Made by a program: the position numbers and the translations under genes. This document shows positions 18,843 through 27,163 of a stretch of DNA of 37,599 nt, piece after piece. Location: assembly GCA_022538095.1 (NCBI GenBank), contig JAKYXN010000052.1:1-37599 (forward strand), read 5' to 3'. The stretch's first letter is position 1, and each line of letters begins with the position of its first letter. This DNA comes from Puniceicoccaceae bacterium K14. GTDB lineage: Bacteria; Verrucomicrobiota; Verrucomicrobiia; Opitutales; Opitutaceae. Under the pieces are notes generated by a model. The model was given only the letters and a program-made list of their open reading frames with translations. It had not been told where the DNA came from and ran no database searches.

Positions 18843-21800
18843 ATGACTGAATTGTGCCTGAGTAAAAACACTCACCTTTTTCACAATTCCTTAAATCCTA
18901 CATTGGTTTCCAGCCACCACAGCATTACAACAAGACATTCGAGAAATTCACGGAAAAAGCATCCACTGAAGCGGTTGCTGCTATCGGTCGTTTTGCTTTG
19001 CAATTTTGGCGAAATTGAAGGTTCAACAACTACCCCGATTGAGGAAGGCTTACCGAAGTTCGAGATATACGAACAGGATAAGATCGGAACCCATCAAAAC
19101 ATTGGAGCCATCACATTTGACAAACTAGGTCGGCTAATCGTAGGTTCTGAAGACATCTTATCGGTTTACGACGGACAAAAATGGACCAATATTCATCAAT
19201 CTGCCACTGAGACCGAAAAGGCGATTAAGTTTCTCAGCCCAAGCAAAGATGGGAAGCTACTGGCAGTTACCGAAGAAAATATCGGACACCTTTCCATCAA
19301 CGAAGAAGGTGACTATCAACTGATTCCAATCGGACATCAAAGCCTTTCCAACAAGCTTAACGCCTCTAACGCAAAAGGAATATATGTTTTGGATGACAGC
19401 CTCTACATCCATTCCGAATCAATCCTATCCTCCTACGATGAGAACGGATTCGCCACACAATGGTCACCTGTGGGAGGACTCGTTGCAATCTTCGAATTCC
19501 AAGGAGATCTGTTCGTTTCAAGTTGGTCAGACGGATTGATGCGAGCGACCAAAGGCTACTTCGAGTACCCCAAGCTCGGCTCACAGCTTGCTCGAGATAT
19601 GACCGTGCTCGACGCTGTCGAATTGAACGAATCCACCGCACTGTTTCTAACCGCAGGCAAAGGTTTTTTTACCTACAACGGGGAAACGATTTTGCCGTTT
19701 CGTTTGCAAGGTGACCAAGAGCTTGAACGCCGTATTGAAGACATTTGCAAGCTAGACGACCGCCACATCGCTGCGATTGTCGAAGGGGAAGGAATCATAA
19801 TTTTCGATACATCAGGAAGGATCTTGCAACGCTTCGATCACAAGATCGACCGGCGCTTCAACCAAGCCTCTAACCTTAATTCTTCAAACGGTGCGCTTTG
19901 GGCAACGATCGGAGACGCGATCATTCGCATAGAATACCCATCGTCTTACACCTATTTCTCGCAAATCCTCGATGTTCCATTAAACAACTTCTCTTTCACA
20001 AGACACGATAACGAATTGTGGATCAGCTCGGGGGATACGCTTTTCGACAATGACCTCGTCGACAAGAAATTTCAGTACACGCCATTTCCCAAAGATTTTG
20101 GAATTCCAGCGGGCTCCGTCCCCATCAATTCCCATTACGCTCTATCCTCTGACTATGGTCTCCTAGTTGCTACCGATCACGATATCATTCTCATGGATAA
20201 GAGAGCTCCGAGCATCATCGCTCGAGATACCCAAGCAGAGTTTCTCCTACAGCTCGAAAAACATCCCGACACAATCATCTGGGCTAACAATTCAGAAATC
20301 GGCATGTTGCAGCGTAACGCAAACACGTGGCAACGAAGCGGGCAAATAATTGAAATCCAGCAATTGGATTGTCATCTAACGGAGGATTCAAATGGCAACA
20401 TCTGGGTAGAACTCGATGCCGGACGTATCGGAAAACTCACTATTAACAACAACCTCCTAGACCTCCAAATCCTTTCTCAAGAATACGGGCTCAACGAGCA
20501 CAGCATCCAAGCATGGAAAAGTGAAAACAGTGTATACTTTTCTCAACACGACGTTGTTTGGCGATACAATGAACGCTCCAATTTTTTCGAAGAAGCATAC
20601 GAAATTACTGCACTACTGCCCGAAAATACAAAAAAAATCAAACGCGGAACTGAAGATAGTTTTTCCAATATTTGGATACCAGCTGCCTCTAAAAATCTCA
20701 TCTTAAAACCAGATGGAAAAAATGGCTACATTCTGGATGACAAATCTTCAGCCAAAACCAACCCATTCGACATCCAAGAATTTCATGCCGATGTCGACGG
20801 AGTCGTTTGGGCAATTGGCCCAAATGAGGTTATCCGCATCGATCCCAAATTCGGTTTAGCAACTCATAAAAATTGGCAGACTCACATAGATAAGATTACC
20901 CTCAGCGACGAACAACGCATAATTTACCATTCGCTCAGCGGCAACGACCTTAAAAAACTCACTCTTCCTTACGAAGATAACAGTCTCGTTTTTCACTTAA
21001 CGACCCCCACGACAGCGGAAGCCATAACTATCGATCACCAAGCGTTTCTCGATGGCTTCTCACAAAACTGGACTCACATAGACCAATCAAATGTATTCAT
21101 TATAGCGAACTTACATGAAGGCGATTACACACTGCGCACTCGAGTTCTATTTGGAGATGAGGTGATCAACCCCATCGACGCCATCTCTTTCTCCATCGAA
21201 CCACCCTTCTATCGCTCACCACTCTCTTACATATTTTACGCAGTGTCTTTTTGTGGGCTCGTGATTTTTATCGGAGCAAAATTCTCAAGTGCCGCCCAGA
21301 GAGAAAATATGCGTCTTCAGTCAATTGTCGGTGATCGCACAAACGAGCTCAGAAAGACTAACGACAAATTATCCGAAACCGCGAAGCGAGCCGAAGCGGC
21401 CAATCGAGCCAAAAGCGTCTTCCTCGCCTCCATGAGTCACGAAATCCGAACGCCTCTAAATGGCGTTATCGGAATGACTAGCCTACTAAAACAAACCGAA
21501 CTCACCAGTGACCAAATCGAATTGGTAAATATCATCGAGAACAGTGGTGAGAACGTGGTGAACATTATCAATGACATCCTGGACTACTCGAAAATCGAGG
21601 CCGGCAAAATCGAACTCGAGTATACCACCTTCAGCCTCATAGAGACTGTGGAGCTCGCGATGGATCTATTCATCGAACCCGTCTCCAAAAAGAACATCGA
21701 AATTGCGTATCTGATTCAAGAAGACGTTCCCGCCATCGCTATCGGTGATAGCTCTAGAATCCGCCAGGTTCTGGTCAACCTAATCGGTAATGCTATTAAA

Positions 21801-22967
21801 TTCACCGATTCGGGCCATATCTTCGTCAATGTGGCACTGGCTAAAATTACGAACGATGACGCCATAGTTGAATTTACGGTAGAGGATACCGGAATTGGGA
21901 TCCCAGCAGATAAGCTAGATCTGCTCTTTCGCTCTTTCAGCCAAGTAGACACAAATCGAGATCAACAGTTCGGCGGAACAGGTCTCGGTTTGGCAATTAG
22001 CAAACGTTTGGTCGAAATAATGGGTGGCGAAATAAAGGTTGAGAGCCAAGAATCCAAAGGATCGCAATTTGTATTCAAAATTCCTCTCAAACTAGAAAAA
22101 GACATCCCCATCGCACAACCTAGCGAAGAGCTTAGAGGAAAGAAAATATTTATCGTGCAGAACTCCTTCTTACAGAGAAGAATCTTGGAGCACTATTCTC
22201 GCGTTTGGGGAGTCGAGTTCGAATCTGCAGCTTCATTCAAAGACGCCCTGGAAATTGCCCACAACACATTAGAACCCTTCGATGTCGCACTCATCGACCT
22301 TGCTCTCCCCGAAATCAACGGCGAAGAGCTGGCAACAGAACTTTCACACCTTCCAGCATTCCACAACACCGGCTTCCTCGCGATTTCCAACAATAGCCTA
22401 GACGCAAACGGCGCCTTTGCGATGAATATTCCAAAGCCCATCAAGCCAAGATTTCTGTTCAGCTGCATATCAAAAATTGTCGCTCAGCCAAAGGAAAACC
22501 AAGGGTCAGAATTGGGAGGCGAAGAAAAACGTTTAACCGAAGCCCGAGCCTCGGAAAATGACCTGAATATCTTACTTGTAGACGACAATGAAACGAACCG
22601 TAAAGTCGGTCGAATGTTGCTGCACAAGTTAGGCTACAGCCCCACTGAAGTGGTAAACGGACAAGACGCCGTCAACGCCGTAAGAAGCAACCGTTTCGAC
22701 ATAATTTTGATGGACGTGCAAATGCCGGTCATGGATGGAAGAGAAGCCACTAAGCAAATTCGCGCAGCAAATCTCGACTACAAACCTTGGATCGTCGCGG
22801 TGACGGCAGGTGCCATGAGGGGTGATATGAACAAAGCATTCGAAGCAGGCATGGATGATTTCTTAAGCAAGCCCGTGTTACTAGAAACACTACGCAAAAC
22901 AATGGAACGTGCTCAAAGCGCAGCTATTAATCGAAGTACACGCGCAAAAGAAATCAAAAGCAGATAA
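18843..22967 (+). CDS. Beta-propeller/Y_Y_Y hybrid histidine kinase with two receivers
   Basis: A 1374-residue sensor resembling the hybrid two-component systems that sense glycans in Bacteroidetes. A hydrophobic segment near 43-55 acts as signal or anchor after an unusually long basic leader. A two-propeller-like repeat region follows to about 690, then a Y_Y_Y domain (about 700-785; LDGFSQNWTHI and LHEGDYTLRTRV), a transmembrane helix (about 792-815) and a coiled coil. The kinase has His866 in SMSHEIRTPLNG, an N-box near 974, G1 DTGIGI and G2 GGTGLGLAI. The first receiver has Gln-Asn in place of the acidic pair, keeping Asp1152. The second is complete with Asp1291. Unlike classic members it has no AraC-type DNA-binding domain at the end. 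The ligand is unknown. Confidence 0.92.
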   Translation: MTELCLSKNTHLFHNSLNPTLVSSHHSITTRHSRNSRKKHPLKRLLLSVVLLCNFGEIEGSTTTPIEEGLPKFEIYEQDKIGTHQNIGAITFDKLGRLIVGSEDILSVYDGQKWTNIHQSATETEKAIKFLSPSKDGKLLAVTEENIGHLSINEEGDYQLIPIGHQSLSNKLNASNAKGIYVLDDSLYIHSESILSSYDENGFATQWSPVGGLVAIFEFQGDLFVSSWSDGLMRATKGYFEYPKLGSQLARDMTVLDAVELNESTALFLTAGKGFFTYNGETILPFRLQGDQELERRIEDICKLDDRHIAAIVEGEGIIIFDTSGRILQRFDHKIDRRFNQASNLNSSNGALWATIGDAIIRIEYPSSYTYFSQILDVPLNNFSFTRHDNELWISSGDTLFDNDLVDKKFQYTPFPKDFGIPAGSVPINSHYALSSDYGLLVATDHDIILMDKRAPSIIARDTQAEFLLQLEKHPDTIIWANNSEIGMLQRNANTWQRSGQIIEIQQLDCHLTEDSNGNIWVELDAGRIGKLTINNNLLDLQILSQEYGLNEHSIQAWKSENSVYFSQHDVVWRYNERSNFFEEAYEITALLPENTKKIKRGTEDSFSNIWIPAASKNLILKPDGKNGYILDDKSSAKTNPFDIQEFHADVDGVVWAIGPNEVIRIDPKFGLATHKNWQTHIDKITLSDEQRIIYHSLSGNDLKKLTLPYEDNSLVFHLTTPTTAEAITIDHQAFLDGFSQNWTHIDQSNVFIIANLHEGDYTLRTRVLFGDEVINPIDAISFSIEPPFYRSPLSYIFYAVSFCGLVIFIGAKFSSAAQRENMRLQSIVGDRTNELRKTNDKLSETAKRAEAANRAKSVFLASMSHEIRTPLNGVIGMTSLLKQTELTSDQIELVNIIENSGENVVNIINDILDYSKIEAGKIELEYTTFSLIETVELAMDLFIEPVSKKNIEIAYLIQEDVPAIAIGDSSRIRQVLVNLIGNAIKFTDSGHIFVNVALAKITNDDAIVEFTVEDTGIGIPADKLDLLFRSFSQVDTNRDQQFGGTGLGLAISKRLVEIMGGEIKVESQESKGSQFVFKIPLKLEKDIPIAQPSEELRGKKIFIVQNSFLQRRILEHYSRVWGVEFESAASFKDALEIAHNTLEPFDVALIDLALPEINGEELATELSHLPAFHNTGFLAISNNSLDANGAFAMNIPKPIKPRFLFSCISKIVAQPKENQGSELGGEEKRLTEARASENDLNILLVDDNETNRKVGRMLLHKLGYSPTEVVNGQDAVNAVRSNRFDIILMDVQMPVMDGREATKQIRAANLDYKPWIVAVTAGAMRGDMNKAFEAGMDDFLSKPVLLETLRKTMERAQSAAINRSTRAKEIKSR

Positions 22968-23055: not shown

Positions 23056-23409
23056 ATGGATCTGGTCCTGCTGTACAAGTCGCTTAGCGATCCCACACGC
23101 CTCCGTATCGTAAACGTCTTACGACACGGCCCTCAACCCGTCTGGAAGTTACAAAAAGTACTCGAGGAGCCACAGGTGAAGATGTCGAAACACTTGGGAT
23201 ATATGAAGAAGCGGGGACTTCTCACCTCCCAGCGCAAAATGAATTGCAACTTATATCACATTGCTTTCAACGCTCATCCGATGCTCGAAGCAAATCTTCA
23301 AGCCTTGGAAAGGTACGCTTGCCAACAGCCTGTTTTAGCAAATGATCTGAAAAAACTTGAGTCTTTGAATACCCCAACGGACACCCAAATCCAAGAGCGC
23401 GTCCAATAA
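23056..23409 (+). CDS. ArsR/SmtB family winged-helix regulator
   Basis: A 117-residue repressor-like protein. LYKSLSDPTRLRIVNVL (about 6-22) is the family opening. The recognition region is KMSKHLGYMKKRGLL (42-56), and the wing follows. It lacks the metal-binding ELCVCDL motif of true arsenic sensors: the matching stretch reads PVWKLQKVLEE. Its only cysteines are Cys64 and Cys89, and there is an extended C-terminal tail. It may therefore sense something other than arsenite, or use an unusual site. An aquaglyceroporin starts 128 bases downstream on the same strand, suggesting it controls that channel. ArsR-aquaporin linkage is known for arsenite channels such as rhizobial AqpS; whether that applies here is open. 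Confidence 0.9.
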   Translation: MDLVLLYKSLSDPTRLRIVNVLRHGPQPVWKLQKVLEEPQVKMSKHLGYMKKRGLLTSQRKMNCNLYHIAFNAHPMLEANLQALERYACQQPVLANDLKKLESLNTPTDTQIQERVQ

Positions 23410-23537
23410 ATCGCCTTTGAGCGATCGAATAGGGCGAAGGAATTGGATTTCTTAGACATTCTCTAAATAAATATCTCCGCGTACCTACTTATACGCTGGA
23501 CTTGTTCCTTAATCGGACAAAAACGCTTTATTTCCTC

Positions 23538-24353
23538 ATGAACACCACTCTCAAATGGCTCGTTGGCGAAGTCATCGGCACCTTCGTCCTTGTATTCATC
23601 GGTTGCTCCACTGTCGCTGTTGCTGTCACATCAGACGGTCAGCTGAGCCTTTTCCACGTCGCAAGCGTGTGGGGATTCGGTGTCACACTTGCCATTCTAA
23701 TTAGCGGTCAACTGAGTAACGCCCACTTAAACCCAGCAGTCACACTCTCCTTAGCAACCTTTGGGGATTTTCCATGGAAACGAGTTCCTGGATACATTAT
23801 AGCGCAATTCATTGGAGCCTTTATCGCAGCCGCTCTCATGTACGCGACATACAACGGATCCATAGAAGCATACGAAAGCGCGAACGATATAACAAGAGGT
23901 GAGATAGGCAGCGAAGCTTCCGCGATGACATTCGGAGAATTTTTCCCAAATCCTGGAGGCCGACCGCTTTCTGAACAAGCGCCTTCTCATATCACCCCTT
24001 GGAACGCCTTTCTTGCAGAGTTCATCGGAACCGCCATATTAATGATAGTCATCTATTGCGTGACTAATCCTAACAATTCAAACATCCCCAAAAGCTTTCC
24101 CCCGATCTTTATTGGGATGACTATTTTTATTCTGATTTCGTTGTTAGCTCCTTTATCACAAGGAGGTTTCAACCCAGCACGTGATTTAGCTCCACGACTC
24201 TTCTCTTCGCTCGTTGGCTGGGGCACAATCCCATTTTCAGCCAATGGCACCGGTTGGTTTAGCGTTTACGTCATAGGTCCAATCGCTGGGGGACTGTGCG
24301 GCGGAGCACTCGCTCGATTCGCGATAACCAAAGGCTACAAAAGCTCCTCGTAG
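23538..24353 (+). CDS. Aquaporin, aquaglyceroporin-like (MIP family)
   Basis: A 271-residue inner-membrane channel with the six-helix plus two half-helix MIP layout. Both NPA boxes are intact: AHLNPAVTL (Asn65-Ala67) and GGFNPARDLAPR (Asn212-Ala214). The Asp after the second NPAR, in the NPARD pattern, is typical of glycerol-conducting GlpF-type members, so glycerol or small neutral solutes are likelier than water alone. An extended loop (about 105-150) is longer than in pure water channels. The start is the ATG at MNTTLKWLVGE; a TTG 36 bases upstream would add a hydrophobic leader of 12 residues and seems unlikely. It overlaps the convergent dehydrogenase gene by 19 bases. Confidence 0.94.
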   Translation: MNTTLKWLVGEVIGTFVLVFIGCSTVAVAVTSDGQLSLFHVASVWGFGVTLAILISGQLSNAHLNPAVTLSLATFGDFPWKRVPGYIIAQFIGAFIAAALMYATYNGSIEAYESANDITRGEIGSEASAMTFGEFFPNPGGRPLSEQAPSHITPWNAFLAEFIGTAILMIVIYCVTNPNNSNIPKSFPPIFIGMTIFILISLLAPLSQGGFNPARDLAPRLFSSLVGWGTIPFSANGTGWFSVYVIGPIAGGLCGGALARFAITKGYKSSS

Positions 24354-25210
24354 TTACGAAACAACGCTTGAGTTCCCAAATCCTCAAACCCTAAGGAAAC
24401 AAGCTTCTCGTAAAGCCTGGCTGCTAACTCAGTACCGGGGAGGTCCAGCTTCAGTTCATCGGCCGATTCCAAAGCAATTTTCAGATCCTTCAAAAAGTGC
24501 TTCACGAAAAAACCAGGTGCATAGTCATCTCTAAAAGCTCTCGGGACCAAATTAGTCATAGACCAACTCCCAGCAGCCCCACTTTGAATGCTCTGCAAAA
24601 CTGTTTCCGGTCTTAAGCCTGCCTTTTTGGCATAACTGAGTGACTCAGCTAGGCCGATCATGCCCCCTGCAATCGCAATCTGGTTACACATCTTTGTTTT
24701 CTGGCCTGCCCCAGCCTCTCCTTGGTGAACGACTATTCCACCCATAATTTCGAACAAAGGTTTGGCACGGAAAAATGCTTCCTCATCTCCACCAACCATT
24801 ATCGACAATCTTGCCTCTCTCGCACCTAAGTCGCCACCGGAGACTGGCGCATCCATAACGGAGATGCCCAATTCTCGCCCCCTTTCCCAAAGTAATTCAG
24901 CCAATTTTGGTTTAGATGTGGTCATATCAATCGCAAGCCCACCTTTTGGCAAAGTAGAGAAAACGCCCTTATCACCCAAATAAGTTTCAGCCACGTCCTC
25001 AGGGTAGCCAACGATCGTTATGACCACGGACGCATCCTCGGCAGCCGCGGCGGGAGAATCTCGCCAAAGAGCACCTTTCTCCAAGAGCTCCTCTGCCTTA
25101 GATCGGGTACGATTGTACACAGCCACCGAATAACCCGCATCCATCAAATGAGACGCCATGCTACGCCCCATCACTCCAGTCCCAATAAAAGCAATACTCT
25201 CTGAACTCAT
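24335..25210 (-). CDS. 3-hydroxyisobutyrate dehydrogenase family oxidoreductase
   Basis: A 291-residue beta-hydroxyacid dehydrogenase. The N-terminal Rossmann loop is IAFIGTGVMGRSMA. The residues after the second strand (YNRTRSKA) favour NADPH. The substrate-binding signature DAPVSGGDLGAREA is at 120-133. The catalytic lysine is Lys173 in GAGQKTKMCNQ, and the all-helical C-terminal domain is complete. Possible substrates include 3-hydroxyisobutyrate, tartronate semialdehyde or succinic semialdehyde; the sequence does not decide. The gene is divergent from the HTH-pseudocyclase regulator with 116 bases between starts, making it a likely target of it (inference). A weak AGGA lies eight bases before the ATG. 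It overlaps the aquaporin 3' end. Confidence 0.92.
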   Translation of the reverse strand: MSSESIAFIGTGVMGRSMASHLMDAGYSVAVYNRTRSKAEELLEKGALWRDSPAAAAEDASVVITIVGYPEDVAETYLGDKGVFSTLPKGGLAIDMTTSKPKLAELLWERGRELGISVMDAPVSGGDLGAREARLSIMVGGDEEAFFRAKPLFEIMGGIVVHQGEAGAGQKTKMCNQIAIAGGMIGLAESLSYAKKAGLRPETVLQSIQSGAAGSWSMTNLVPRAFRDDYAPGFFVKHFLKDLKIALESADELKLDLPGTELAARLYEKLVSLGFEDLGTQALFRNYEELL

Positions 25211-25326
25211 AAAACGATCCTAATTCCAATTATCGCTCGTACGCAAAACGAAAACAAATCGACGAATCTATTTGTCACCGCTCACCTCCTTCGTAACATT
25301 CAACCTTTTAGACACAATCCCAACAA

Positions 25327-26061
25327 ATGAATCTGCAAGATCTAGGAGATAGAATTCGGCACCGCAGGAAAAAATACGGACTCACTCAAACCGACATAGC
25401 CAACGCTGTTCAAGTGAGCCCACAAGCTGTTTCCAAATGGGAACGCGGTGAAAACGCCCCAGACATTAGCTGCCTCTCTAGCCTAGCACAGCTTCTCGGC
25501 GTATCAATTGAATGGCTACTGGGCTGCCAGAGTGTCGACAAAGATGTGTTCGAAGCCACCGTATTAGCCGCTCGTGCTCGAAACGCACGCGAAAAATCCG
25601 AGCAACTAGAACCAAGAGATTTTGCATCTTGGACCAATGGCGTTTGCTTCCAACTCACCGAAACAGTTCTCCGATACGGAGGTGTTCCGATCAAGAATCG
25701 CGGAGCTGGGCTACTCTGTTTTTTCTCTGGAAACGAACACCAAGCTCGAGCAATAGACACCGCGCTATCAGCCTGCAAACTCGTCAACGAGCCCCTAAAA
25801 GCAGGCTTAAGTACCGGTTCCATTTATTTTGGGCCGATTGGACACCCGGACTACTCACAACCTGACGCGATTGGTGAAGCAGTCAGTATCTCGCTTCTCA
25901 ATACAGACTGGGCAGCCAAAAACACGACCACAGGAATCGCCGTCGATCAAAAAACACTCAGCGGCTCCACAAAACACTCAGACGTTCAAGGCATACACCA
26001 CGTAATAAATTACACAGGCATTAGCCACAACGTTCATATAATAGAGGTCCCCGTCAAGTAG
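25327..26061 (+). CDS. XRE-type HTH regulator fused to a degenerate class III nucleotide cyclase domain
   Basis: A 244-residue protein. Residues 8-62 form a clear XRE/Cro helix-turn-helix (KKYGLTQTDIANAVQVSPQ, then WERGENAPD). Residues about 73-244 follow the class III adenylate/guanylate cyclase pattern: SEQLEPRDF, VLRYGGVPIKNRGAGLLCFF, then LKAGLSTGSIYFGPIGHPDY and IGEAVSIS. Both metal-binding aspartates appear lost (a VLAARARN stretch where F-A-D-I is expected, and Ala127 in place of Asp in G-D-G). The transition-state Asn and Arg are Ser187 and Leu191. Lys123 and Asp180, at the base-reading positions, remain. I infer a nucleotide-binding but non-catalytic sensor domain controlling DNA binding. 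The fold assignment is by pattern and not proven. Divergent from the dehydrogenase. Confidence 0.75.
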   Translation: MNLQDLGDRIRHRRKKYGLTQTDIANAVQVSPQAVSKWERGENAPDISCLSSLAQLLGVSIEWLLGCQSVDKDVFEATVLAARARNAREKSEQLEPRDFASWTNGVCFQLTETVLRYGGVPIKNRGAGLLCFFSGNEHQARAIDTALSACKLVNEPLKAGLSTGSIYFGPIGHPDYSQPDAIGEAVSISLLNTDWAAKNTTTGIAVDQKTLSGSTKHSDVQGIHHVINYTGISHNVHIIEVPVK

Positions 26062-26082: not shown

Positions 26083-26108
26083 AAAAGCCGACCTCAAAAG
26101 ATCGGCTT
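26083..26108 (-). terminator. Intrinsic terminator after the aldolase gene
   Basis: An eight-pair stem AAAGCCGA/TCGGCTTT with a 10-base loop lies between the convergent HTH and aldolase genes. On the minus strand it is followed by six T, so it mainly ends the aldolase message. The plus-strand tail (TTTGTATT) is poorer, but the hairpin may also serve the HTH gene. Confidence 0.88.
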
Positions 26109-26131
26109 TGTATTCAAATTATAGGATTTTC

Positions 26132-27163
26132 TTATACTGTTCCGTAGATGGACTTACCATTGGAAAGAAGATCTTCCGCTGCAACGATCAAGCGATCTGC
26201 CATACTCTTCTCCGCTTTCTTCAAGTAAGAACGTGGATCGTATTGCTTCTTGTTACCCACTTCACCATCAATCTTAAGAACACCTTCGATGCTTTCGCAA
26301 ATGTGAGTCACGATAGGACGAGTAAAAGAGTACTGAGTATCTGTATCGATGTTCATCTTAACGACACCATAACCAAGAGTCTCACGAATATCGCTTAAGT
26401 CAGAACCGGAACCACCGTGGAAAACAAGGTCCATTTCAGCTTCTGCGCCATACTTGTCTGTTACCGCCTTTTGCCCATCACGAAGGATAGTCGGCTTTAG
26501 CTGAACAGCGCCTGGTTTGTAAGCTCCGTGAACGTTTCCAAATGTTGCCGCGAACAAGAAACGACCAATTCCATTTAGATTTTCGTATACAGCCAACATG
26601 TCCTCAGGAGTTGTATACAATTTTTCTGCAGGAAGCCCAGATGTATCATGACCGTCTTCTTCGCCACCAACAACACCTGCTTCAATTTCAAGAATGATAT
26701 CCAAAGAAGCGCACTCTTCTAAAAGAGACTTCGACATCGCCAAGTTTTCTTCCAACGGTAGTTCAGAACCATCGTACATATGGGAATTGAAAAGAGGCCC
26801 TTTTCCTTCTGCGATTCGCTTACGAGATGCTTCTAGCAATGGACGGAGAAACCCATCAACCTTTGCCGGATGACAGTGGTCCGTATGGAGAGCAACAAGT
26901 ACATCGTACTTTTCCGCCAATGTGTGCGTAGCTTCCGCCAATACGATCGCACCAAAAGCCGCGTCACTGTTATTTAGACCCGAAGCGAATTGACCGCCTC
27001 CAGTAGATACTTGGATGATACCATCTGACTTTGCATCCGCGAATGCCTTAAGAGCAGCGTTAATCGTTACGATCGACGTAACATTTACTGCAGGATACGC
27101 ATAGCCACCTTTTTGGGCTGCATCCAACATCGCTTCATATTGCTTAGGAGTTGCGACTGGCAT
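26132..27163 (-). CDS. fba: Class II fructose-bisphosphate aldolase
   Basis: Cleaves fructose 1,6-bisphosphate into two triose phosphates in glycolysis, and the reverse in gluconeogenesis; zinc-dependent. The 343-residue length fits the FbaA-like class IIA. Seen: YPAVNVTS near residue 25, VSTGGGQFASG, LHTDHCHP with catalytic Asp95 and zinc ligand His96, the EIEAGVVGGEEDGHD region, and further zinc-binding His residues in FGNVHGAYKPG and LVFHGGSGSD. All active-site parts are present. It is a single gene closed by the terminator at 26083-26108. Its ATG lies after an A/T-rich leader with no Shine-Dalgarno sequence. Confidence 0.97.
   Translation of the reverse strand: MPVATPKQYEAMLDAAQKGGYAYPAVNVTSIVTINAALKAFADAKSDGIIQVSTGGGQFASGLNNSDAAFGAIVLAEATHTLAEKYDVLVALHTDHCHPAKVDGFLRPLLEASRKRIAEGKGPLFNSHMYDGSELPLEENLAMSKSLLEECASLDIILEIEAGVVGGEEDGHDTSGLPAEKLYTTPEDMLAVYENLNGIGRFLFAATFGNVHGAYKPGAVQLKPTILRDGQKAVTDKYGAEAEMDLVFHGGSGSDLSDIRETLGYGVVKMNIDTDTQYSFTRPIVTHICESIEGVLKIDGEVGNKKQYDPRSYLKKAEKSMADRLIVAAEDLLSNGKSIYGTV

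Follow-up and report, generated by a model that had tools for sequence, protein, structure and literature searches.

What use does a small DNA-binding protein have for a nucleotide-cyclase domain that has lost the residues of catalysis? The question is raised by a gene at positions 25327 to 26061 of the window, by which we mean the whole 37,599-nucleotide stretch of DNA analysed here. The first-pass annotation of this DNA had described the encoded protein as a transcriptional regulator in which an XRE helix-turn-helix (HTH) is joined to a dead class III cyclase-like domain, had proposed it as an undescribed type of sensor, and had named the divergently transcribed dehydrogenase gene as a likely target. 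Our data uphold the architecture and the loss of the catalytic set, narrow the claim to novelty and lend no support to the dehydrogenase as a target.

An XRE helix-turn-helix in front of a class III cyclase homology domain

The gene and its two parts are as follows.

25327..26061, plus strand: XRE-CHD regulator gene, 244 aa (open reading frame, translation, 13 further full-length members)
25327..25524, plus strand: Cro/C1-type (XRE) helix-turn-helix, residues 1-66 (Pfam HTH_3, 1.4e-15)
25531..26058, plus strand: degenerate class III cyclase homology domain (CHD), residues 69-244 (hhalign with shuffles, PDB profile search, AlphaFold2 model with fold comparisons)

The open reading frame begins with ATG. 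Pfam HTH_3 matches residues 10-64 with 57.5 bits against a cut-off of 23, and is found in all 13 family members scanned. At the HTH the window protein is identical to 11 close relatives in 58-62 of 66 residues, and to L058, the most divergent member of the family (54% identity, from a different family within the class), in 45 of 66. The NCBIfam model of BldD matches the HTH weakly; BldD has an XRE-type HTH, and its ligand site is not known to be a cyclase domain. The HTH also draws defence models in PADLOC, the best being RmrA (4.6e-14), where residues 8-113 match positions 11-112 of a 400-position model and the remaining matches end between residues 64 and 114; we read these matches as similarity of the HTH.

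The CHD of the window protein matched no Pfam family, and none of 13 family members scanned matched PF00211 at E<=0.1. A single-sequence search of PDB sequences returned the class III cyclases 2w01 (E 0.28) and 3r5g (E 0.61), which lie in the noise. When a profile of nine C-terminal sequences was run against PDB sequences with hmmsearch, class III cyclases took the first seven of nine matches at E<=10, led by 2w01 (E 0.0014) and adenylate cyclase type 10 (E 0.0017), the eighth match being unrelated. Using hhalign, we compared the family with eight class III cyclases (alignment A6: L019 from the window genome, L056 and L057 from other genomes of the class, and L059-L063 from viral contigs) and obtained a probability of 95.7 and an E-value of 9.8e-9 over 164 columns; with 13 family members these became 97.3 and 2.3e-11 over 165 columns, the family profile being shallow throughout (Neff 1.5-1.8). 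As controls, 200 column-shuffled versions reached at most a probability of 4.7 and a score of 23.3 against the real 58.7, a reversed profile gave a probability of 0.24, and an unrelated profile 0.1. On these comparisons we regard the class III cyclase homology of residues 69-244 as secure, and the joining of the two domains as originally annotated stands.

An AlphaFold2 model was made from an alignment (A7) of nine family members and 28 true cyclases, the latter hand-picked for spread from 85 viral-contig cyclase loci, with L062 omitted for its ambiguous letters. It reached a pLDDT of 90.1 and a pTM of 0.87, values to be read with the caveat that the 28 true cyclases may pull the fold. Foldseek placed 2w01 first (E 8.7e-12) and VIA-align placed 8qfi first (Z 22.6 over 173 residues, rmsd 2.1), and the best 50 matches listed by each method were all class III cyclases. 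An alignment limited to the nine family sequences gave no prediction of the CHD, the pLDDT staying below 50 over residues 110-244. The CHD is thus predicted to have the proposed class III fold in a model aided by the cyclases in its alignment.

The catalytic residues are lost throughout the family

The active-site positions of the window protein are encoded at the following codons.

25573..25575, plus strand: codon of R83, metal-binding Asp1 column (A7 alignment)
25693..25695, plus strand: codon of K123, base-reading Lys column, kept (K in 13 of 14 family members)
25705..25707, plus strand: codon of A127, metal-binding Asp2 column (D in none of 14 family members)
25864..25866, plus strand: codon of D180 at the second base-reading column, kept (all 14 family members have D)
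25885..25899, plus strand: codons 187-191 (S187 to L191), site of the catalytic Asn-x3-Arg (neither the Asn nor the Arg in any of the 14)

All 28 cyclases of A7 have D in both metal columns, K in the base-reading Lys column, N in the catalytic Asn column and R in the catalytic Arg column, and in the second base-reading column 21 have T and 7 have S. The window protein carries R83 and A127 in the metal columns, S187 (V in L058) in the Asn column, and, opposite the Arg, L191 in the ungapped register or N192 in the gapped register of MAFFT. It retains K123 and has D180 as the second base-reading residue. This agrees with the first-pass annotation, which had aligned the site by eye and found both metal aspartates, the Asn and the Arg replaced, with Lys123 and Asp180 remaining. 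At the aligned columns the two metal aspartates, the Asn and the Arg are absent from all 14 full-length members, so that a search among them for a homologue with the full set of catalytic aspartates found none. Of the five positions that had been singled out for a conservation check, 180 is D in all 14, 127 is never D, 187 and 191 are never Asn and Arg, and 123 is K in 13 but N in L058. Judged from these columns the CHD is catalytically dead, and this is a property of the whole family.

Three arginines are well kept, R83 in 13 of the 14 members (G in L058), R88 in all 14, and R125 in 13 (I in L058). Twelve members have an Asp at position 81, two residues ahead of the metal-Asp1 column, where the window protein has Ala and L058 has V; a shifted strand could bring Asp81 near the Asp1 site, but Asp2 is still absent in 14 of 14. 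Around the second base-reading position, GHPDY, P179, D180, I182, G183 and E184 (the stretch GHPDY..PD.IGE) are invariant in 13 aligned members, with which L025 agrees, and the C-terminal end of the CHD varies freely across the same 13.

Family membership, selection and distribution

The 14 full-length members come from one genome each, one per species in the collections used: the window, eight close-relative loci (the same DNA as eight of the G-numbered loci), G212, G298, G354, G239 and L058 (G679). Relatives that carry a name are MAGs titled Opitutales, Opitutaceae or Verrucomicrobiia. A 15th locus, L055 (G584), has decayed: two in-frame stops interrupt it, and the remnant continues into what we take, by likeness to the gene beside L058, to be the end of a methyltransferase-like gene. 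Several candidates were dropped. L017 and L018, two of the ten loci of the close-relative scan, encode NMT1-type ABC substrate-binding proteins with a short stretch in common, and L152 was judged by eye to be a chance match. L056, L057, L145-L147, L150, L151 and L153 are cyclases without an HTH in the preceding stretch inspected, which for L145-L147, L150, L151 and L153 was up to 140 residues.

Nei-Gojobori estimates were made for the CHD of 12 sequences, L025 and L058 being left out. Most dS values are saturated, and the 24 of 66 pairs with finite dS give dN/dS of 0.005-0.08. Five of these pairs have a dS below 1.5, and their ratios are 0.067, 0.009, 0.005, 0.039 and 0.038. Between the window and L009 the CHD has a dN of 0.209, about three times the 0.064 of the HTH, which is the more tightly constrained of the two. 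The CHD is under purifying selection and is not a decaying remnant. As a catalytically dead domain with low dN/dS, it therefore does a job, and the description of the protein as a regulator that combines an HTH with a dead cyclase domain holds for the family.

Of 200 genomes sampled from the window's family, 11 carry the XRE-CHD gene, and these fall in 3 genera. Within the genus of G212 the gene is present in 10 of 11 genomes, and within the family of G584 in 2 of 8, of which one has the remnant. Plasmids gave no match at 1e-12, phages no CHD match at 0.01, and viral contigs no XRE-CHD match in two pattern-based scans. An XRE-CHD protein with the catalytic residues was found neither in the samples of the order (177 genomes, protein query), family (200), class (384) and phylum (387), nor among 293 genomes of the order of G679 and 8 of the family of G584. 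These sample sets overlap, and the coverage of other phyla is that of the close-relative scan. As a separate observation on the viral contigs, at least 582 of the 600 candidate stretches listed encode class III cyclase relatives (L064-L143 from the scan).

Proposed mechanism

The reading that we favour, with confidence evenly poised, is that of a one-component regulator whose dead CHD dimerises and probably binds an adenine-nucleotide-like anion; dimerisation, ligand binding and target are what we infer in it. The XRE HTH would bind DNA as a dimer, and the CHD, no longer cyclising nucleotides, would serve as the module for dimerisation and regulation. Class III CHDs pair in antiparallel fashion with their nucleotide sites at the dimer interface, according to the parts of PMC12264004 and PMC4886424 used here, so a ligand at the interface of the CHD pair could determine how far apart the two HTHs lie. 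That ligand would most likely be an adenine-nucleotide-like anion. The argument for an anionic purine is that the Lys123/Asp180 pair is retained, Lys/Asp being described in the same part of PMC4886424 as the ATP-reading pair of adenylyl cyclases, and that new arginines are present: R83 in the metal-Asp1 column, R88, and R125 just before the Asp2 column may neutralise phosphates without metal. Binding of a triphosphate is doubtful because the metal ligands are absent, and in a related heterodimeric cyclase the absence of a metal Asp was interpreted as precluding the binding of a nucleotide (PMC12264004). A further point against a ligand comes from L058, in which K123, R83 and R125 are N, G and I. 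For ligand control of the regulator, through putative binding at this site, we see the balance as level. The protein would then be a dimeric XRE repressor or activator whose dimer is set by the dead CHD.

The same dimer could do without a ligand altogether, the CHD serving as a dimerisation scaffold, which would pair two HTHs in the manner of the cyclase dimer, in a plain repressor or autorepressor that is set by its own level. We consider this a serious possibility, if on the whole a somewhat doubtful one. It would account for the disappearance of both metal ligands and both transition-state residues from all 14 members and for the loss of K123 in L058, and the conservation of the CHD is as compatible with a structural role as with a sensing one. 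A mere scaffold, however, has no need to keep the base-reading pair, and D180 and the GHPDY..PD.IGE stretch show no change across the 13 aligned members, in contrast to the freely varying C-terminal end.

Neighbourhood and control of the gene

The genes around the regulator and the features of the DNA upstream are as follows.

24335..25210, minus strand: divergent neighbour, beta-hydroxyacid dehydrogenase gene (Pfam NAD_binding_2, NAD_binding_11)
25254..25275, no strand: candidate operator, weak; inverted repeat ACAAATCGA-4-TCTATTTGT, 22 bp, overlapping the -35 hexamer
25272..25299, plus strand: sigma-70-like promoter TTGTCA-16-TAACAT (consensus match; 1 found, 1.1 expected by chance)
26084..26109, no strand: terminator-like hairpin between the regulator gene and the aldolase gene that converges on it (match on the minus strand; the region has 2, with 1.4 expected)
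26132..27163, minus strand: convergent neighbour, class II fructose-bisphosphate aldolase gene (NF006628 above cut-off)
L009:4404-4931, L013:4394-4921, L014:3469-3999, and others: PLD-like gene copies in relatives
G000:C36:735-1259 and G000:C176:71588-72112: two intact PLD copies in the window genome, away from the XRE gene

The dehydrogenase, whose best NCBIfam model is TIGR01505 (2.5e-67, below its cut-off), is adjacent to and divergent from the regulator gene in the window genome only, and in none of 13 relatives. Among 12 close relatives, 11 have a small PLD-like gene as the next gene upstream of the XRE gene and in the same orientation, with the dehydrogenase further upstream, and in L014 and L016 a cobalamin-independent methionine synthase gene (identified by Pfam on the L014 copy) also comes between the two. 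The downstream side of the locus is better conserved, a class II aldolase gene being convergent in 11 of 12 close relatives. The locus of G328 (L012) has none of the aldolase, PLD-like or dehydrogenase neighbours, and L058 is followed by a methyltransferase gene. In the window, two further genes lie just upstream of the dehydrogenase at 23056-24353, one for an ArsR-like HTH protein (Pfam HTH_20) and one for a major intrinsic protein (aquaporin-type channel), and 18843-22967 encodes a 1374-aa hybrid histidine kinase with HisKA, HATPase and two receiver stretches (Pfam) behind a long N-terminal sensor part.

An element GATTC-N2-CTTTC recurs 47-53 bp ahead of the ATG, exact in 8 of the 14 members and with one mismatch in two (L013, L025); the other four, among them the window and L058, have three mismatches. 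It is exact in L012 although the neighbours there differ, and the sigma-70-like promoter of the window lies about where it recurs in the relatives. The element belongs to the promoter region of the XRE gene itself. With this and the arrangement of the genes, the dehydrogenase is not supported as the target. Inverted repeats as good as the candidate operator of the window turned up in 83 of 2000 shuffles and in 71 of 647 window tiles, and the candidate was not seen in the four relatives scanned. Autoregulation is the most economical guess, and the regulator most likely controls itself.

The PLD-like protein (about 175 aa, with an HKD motif and a C-terminal cysteine cluster; Pfam PLDc_2 5.4e-15) weakly matches MkoB and DrmC (1e-7). 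Its identification as DrmC of DISARM was rejected at 36.9 bits against a cut-off of 133. Its place beside the XRE gene raises the alternative of an antitoxin-like regulator of a putative nuclease of the PLD (HKD) family, with the CHD sensing a releasing signal, which we consider improbable. Such a pairing would fit the adjacency in 11 of 12 close relatives, with gaps of 69-271 bp in the nine loci measured, and the presence of a PLD copy in all 11 carriers of the 200-genome sample, broken in two; the gene is broken in G262 and G354. It would also fit that the two loci with a broken PLD gene (L011/L021 with several stops, L027 with one TGA) have an intact XRE gene. The linkage fails elsewhere, however: the two intact copies of the window genome do not adjoin the XRE gene, the PLD gene occurs without the XRE gene in six genomes of another genus, and L058 is adjoined by its methyltransferase gene instead.

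Class III cyclases of the carrier genomes

A PF00211 cyclase is present in 161 of the 200 genomes of the family sample, in 2 of the 11 XRE-CHD carriers (G000, the window genome, and G239) as against 159 of the 189 others (Fisher p 7e-6, with no correction for phylogeny, the 11 carriers spanning 3 genera and the association being confounded accordingly). Of the nine carriers that lack a cyclase, four were listed as such, and five are counted by their absence from the complete match list, on the assumption of an identical 200-genome draw. Because only 2 of 11 carriers have such a cyclase, the CHD is not usually found beside PF00211 class III enzymes, nor usually their partner. The sole PF00211 cyclase of the window genome, L019 (G000:C300), combines CHASE2 with a cyclase domain; it keeps both metal aspartates, the Asn and the Arg, has Asn for the base-reading Lys, and has Gly in the second base column.

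This composition of L019, which lacks the base Lys and has all that the window CHD has lost, is what would recommend a CHD that pairs with an active cellular cyclase, modulating it or lending it base-reading residues and so linking DNA binding to cyclase activity, but we hold this very improbable, since 9 of the 11 carriers have no PF00211 match, which excludes it as a general mechanism for those nine genomes if their assemblies are complete, and since in a class III pair one chain gives the two aspartates and the other the rest (PMC4886424, in part), of which the Asn and Arg are lost here.

Returning to the one-component regulator, a bolder form of it can be put forward tentatively, as an unlikely but specific proposal: an adenylyl-cyclase domain may have been converted to a metal-free nucleotide receptor in which R83, R88 and R125 replace magnesium, the Lys/Asp pair is kept and the dimer interface signals occupancy to the XRE HTH. 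As part of this proposal the receptor would have outlived the enzyme, because XRE-CHD persists in lineages mostly without PF00211 cyclases.

Relation to known systems

The closest likeness is to the mycobacterial proteins Mclx2 (Rv1358) and Mclx3 (Rv2488c), which, like the window protein, hold a degenerate class III CHD and a DNA-binding HTH in one chain (PMC4452763, PMC3466318; as in the rest of this section, we draw on parts of the papers cited). They have been proposed as regulators binding ATP and/or cAMP (PMC4452763). In these proteins the CHD is N-terminal and a LuxR HTH C-terminal, and an AAA/NB-ARC part may lie between them, whereas the window protein has an N-terminal XRE HTH and only 244 residues. 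The residues lost also differ: Mclx2 lacks one metal residue and the Asn, Mclx3 lacks the Asn, and both lack the substrate-selecting residues (PMC4452763, PMC3466318), whereas the window protein has lost all metal and transition-state residues and kept the base-reading pair. With the active bacterial class III cyclases Cya2 (2w01), CyaB (3r5g) and CyaC (1wc1) the window CHD has fold and whole-domain homology in common; it differs from the active enzymes in the missing metal aspartates, Asn and Arg, in D180 for the Thr or Ser of the 28 aligned cyclases, and in the XRE HTH in front. Inactive cNMP-cyclase domains likewise occur in fusions with vWA proteins in conflict systems of prokaryotes, possibly as nucleotide-binding-only or dominant forms (PMC7159879). 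Unlike the window protein these belong to multi-gene systems, and the part of that paper used here names no DNA-binding domain for them. The regulator may also be likened to the transcription factor BldD, which dimerises effectively through the nucleotide c-di-GMP (PMC4151990).

The earlier claim of an undescribed type of sensor therefore stands in part: the idea of a degenerate CHD with an HTH has a printed precedent in Mclx2 and Mclx3, and we found none for the XRE version. An XRE-CHD fusion did not appear in the open-licence PMC literature searched, and PMC2447327, represented here in part, may describe more HTH-CHD fusions. If ligand binding is true, a second-messenger enzyme domain has been re-used as a small one-component sensor, the whole regulator taking 244 residues, with a record over 14 genomes. 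The family offers a compact system for the role of class III domains after catalysis is lost, the same question that is raised for the Mclx proteins and for the inactive cyclase domains of conflict systems, in the parts of those papers drawn on above. Pfam and NCBIfam detect only the HTH of these proteins, and more such fusions may therefore be hidden.
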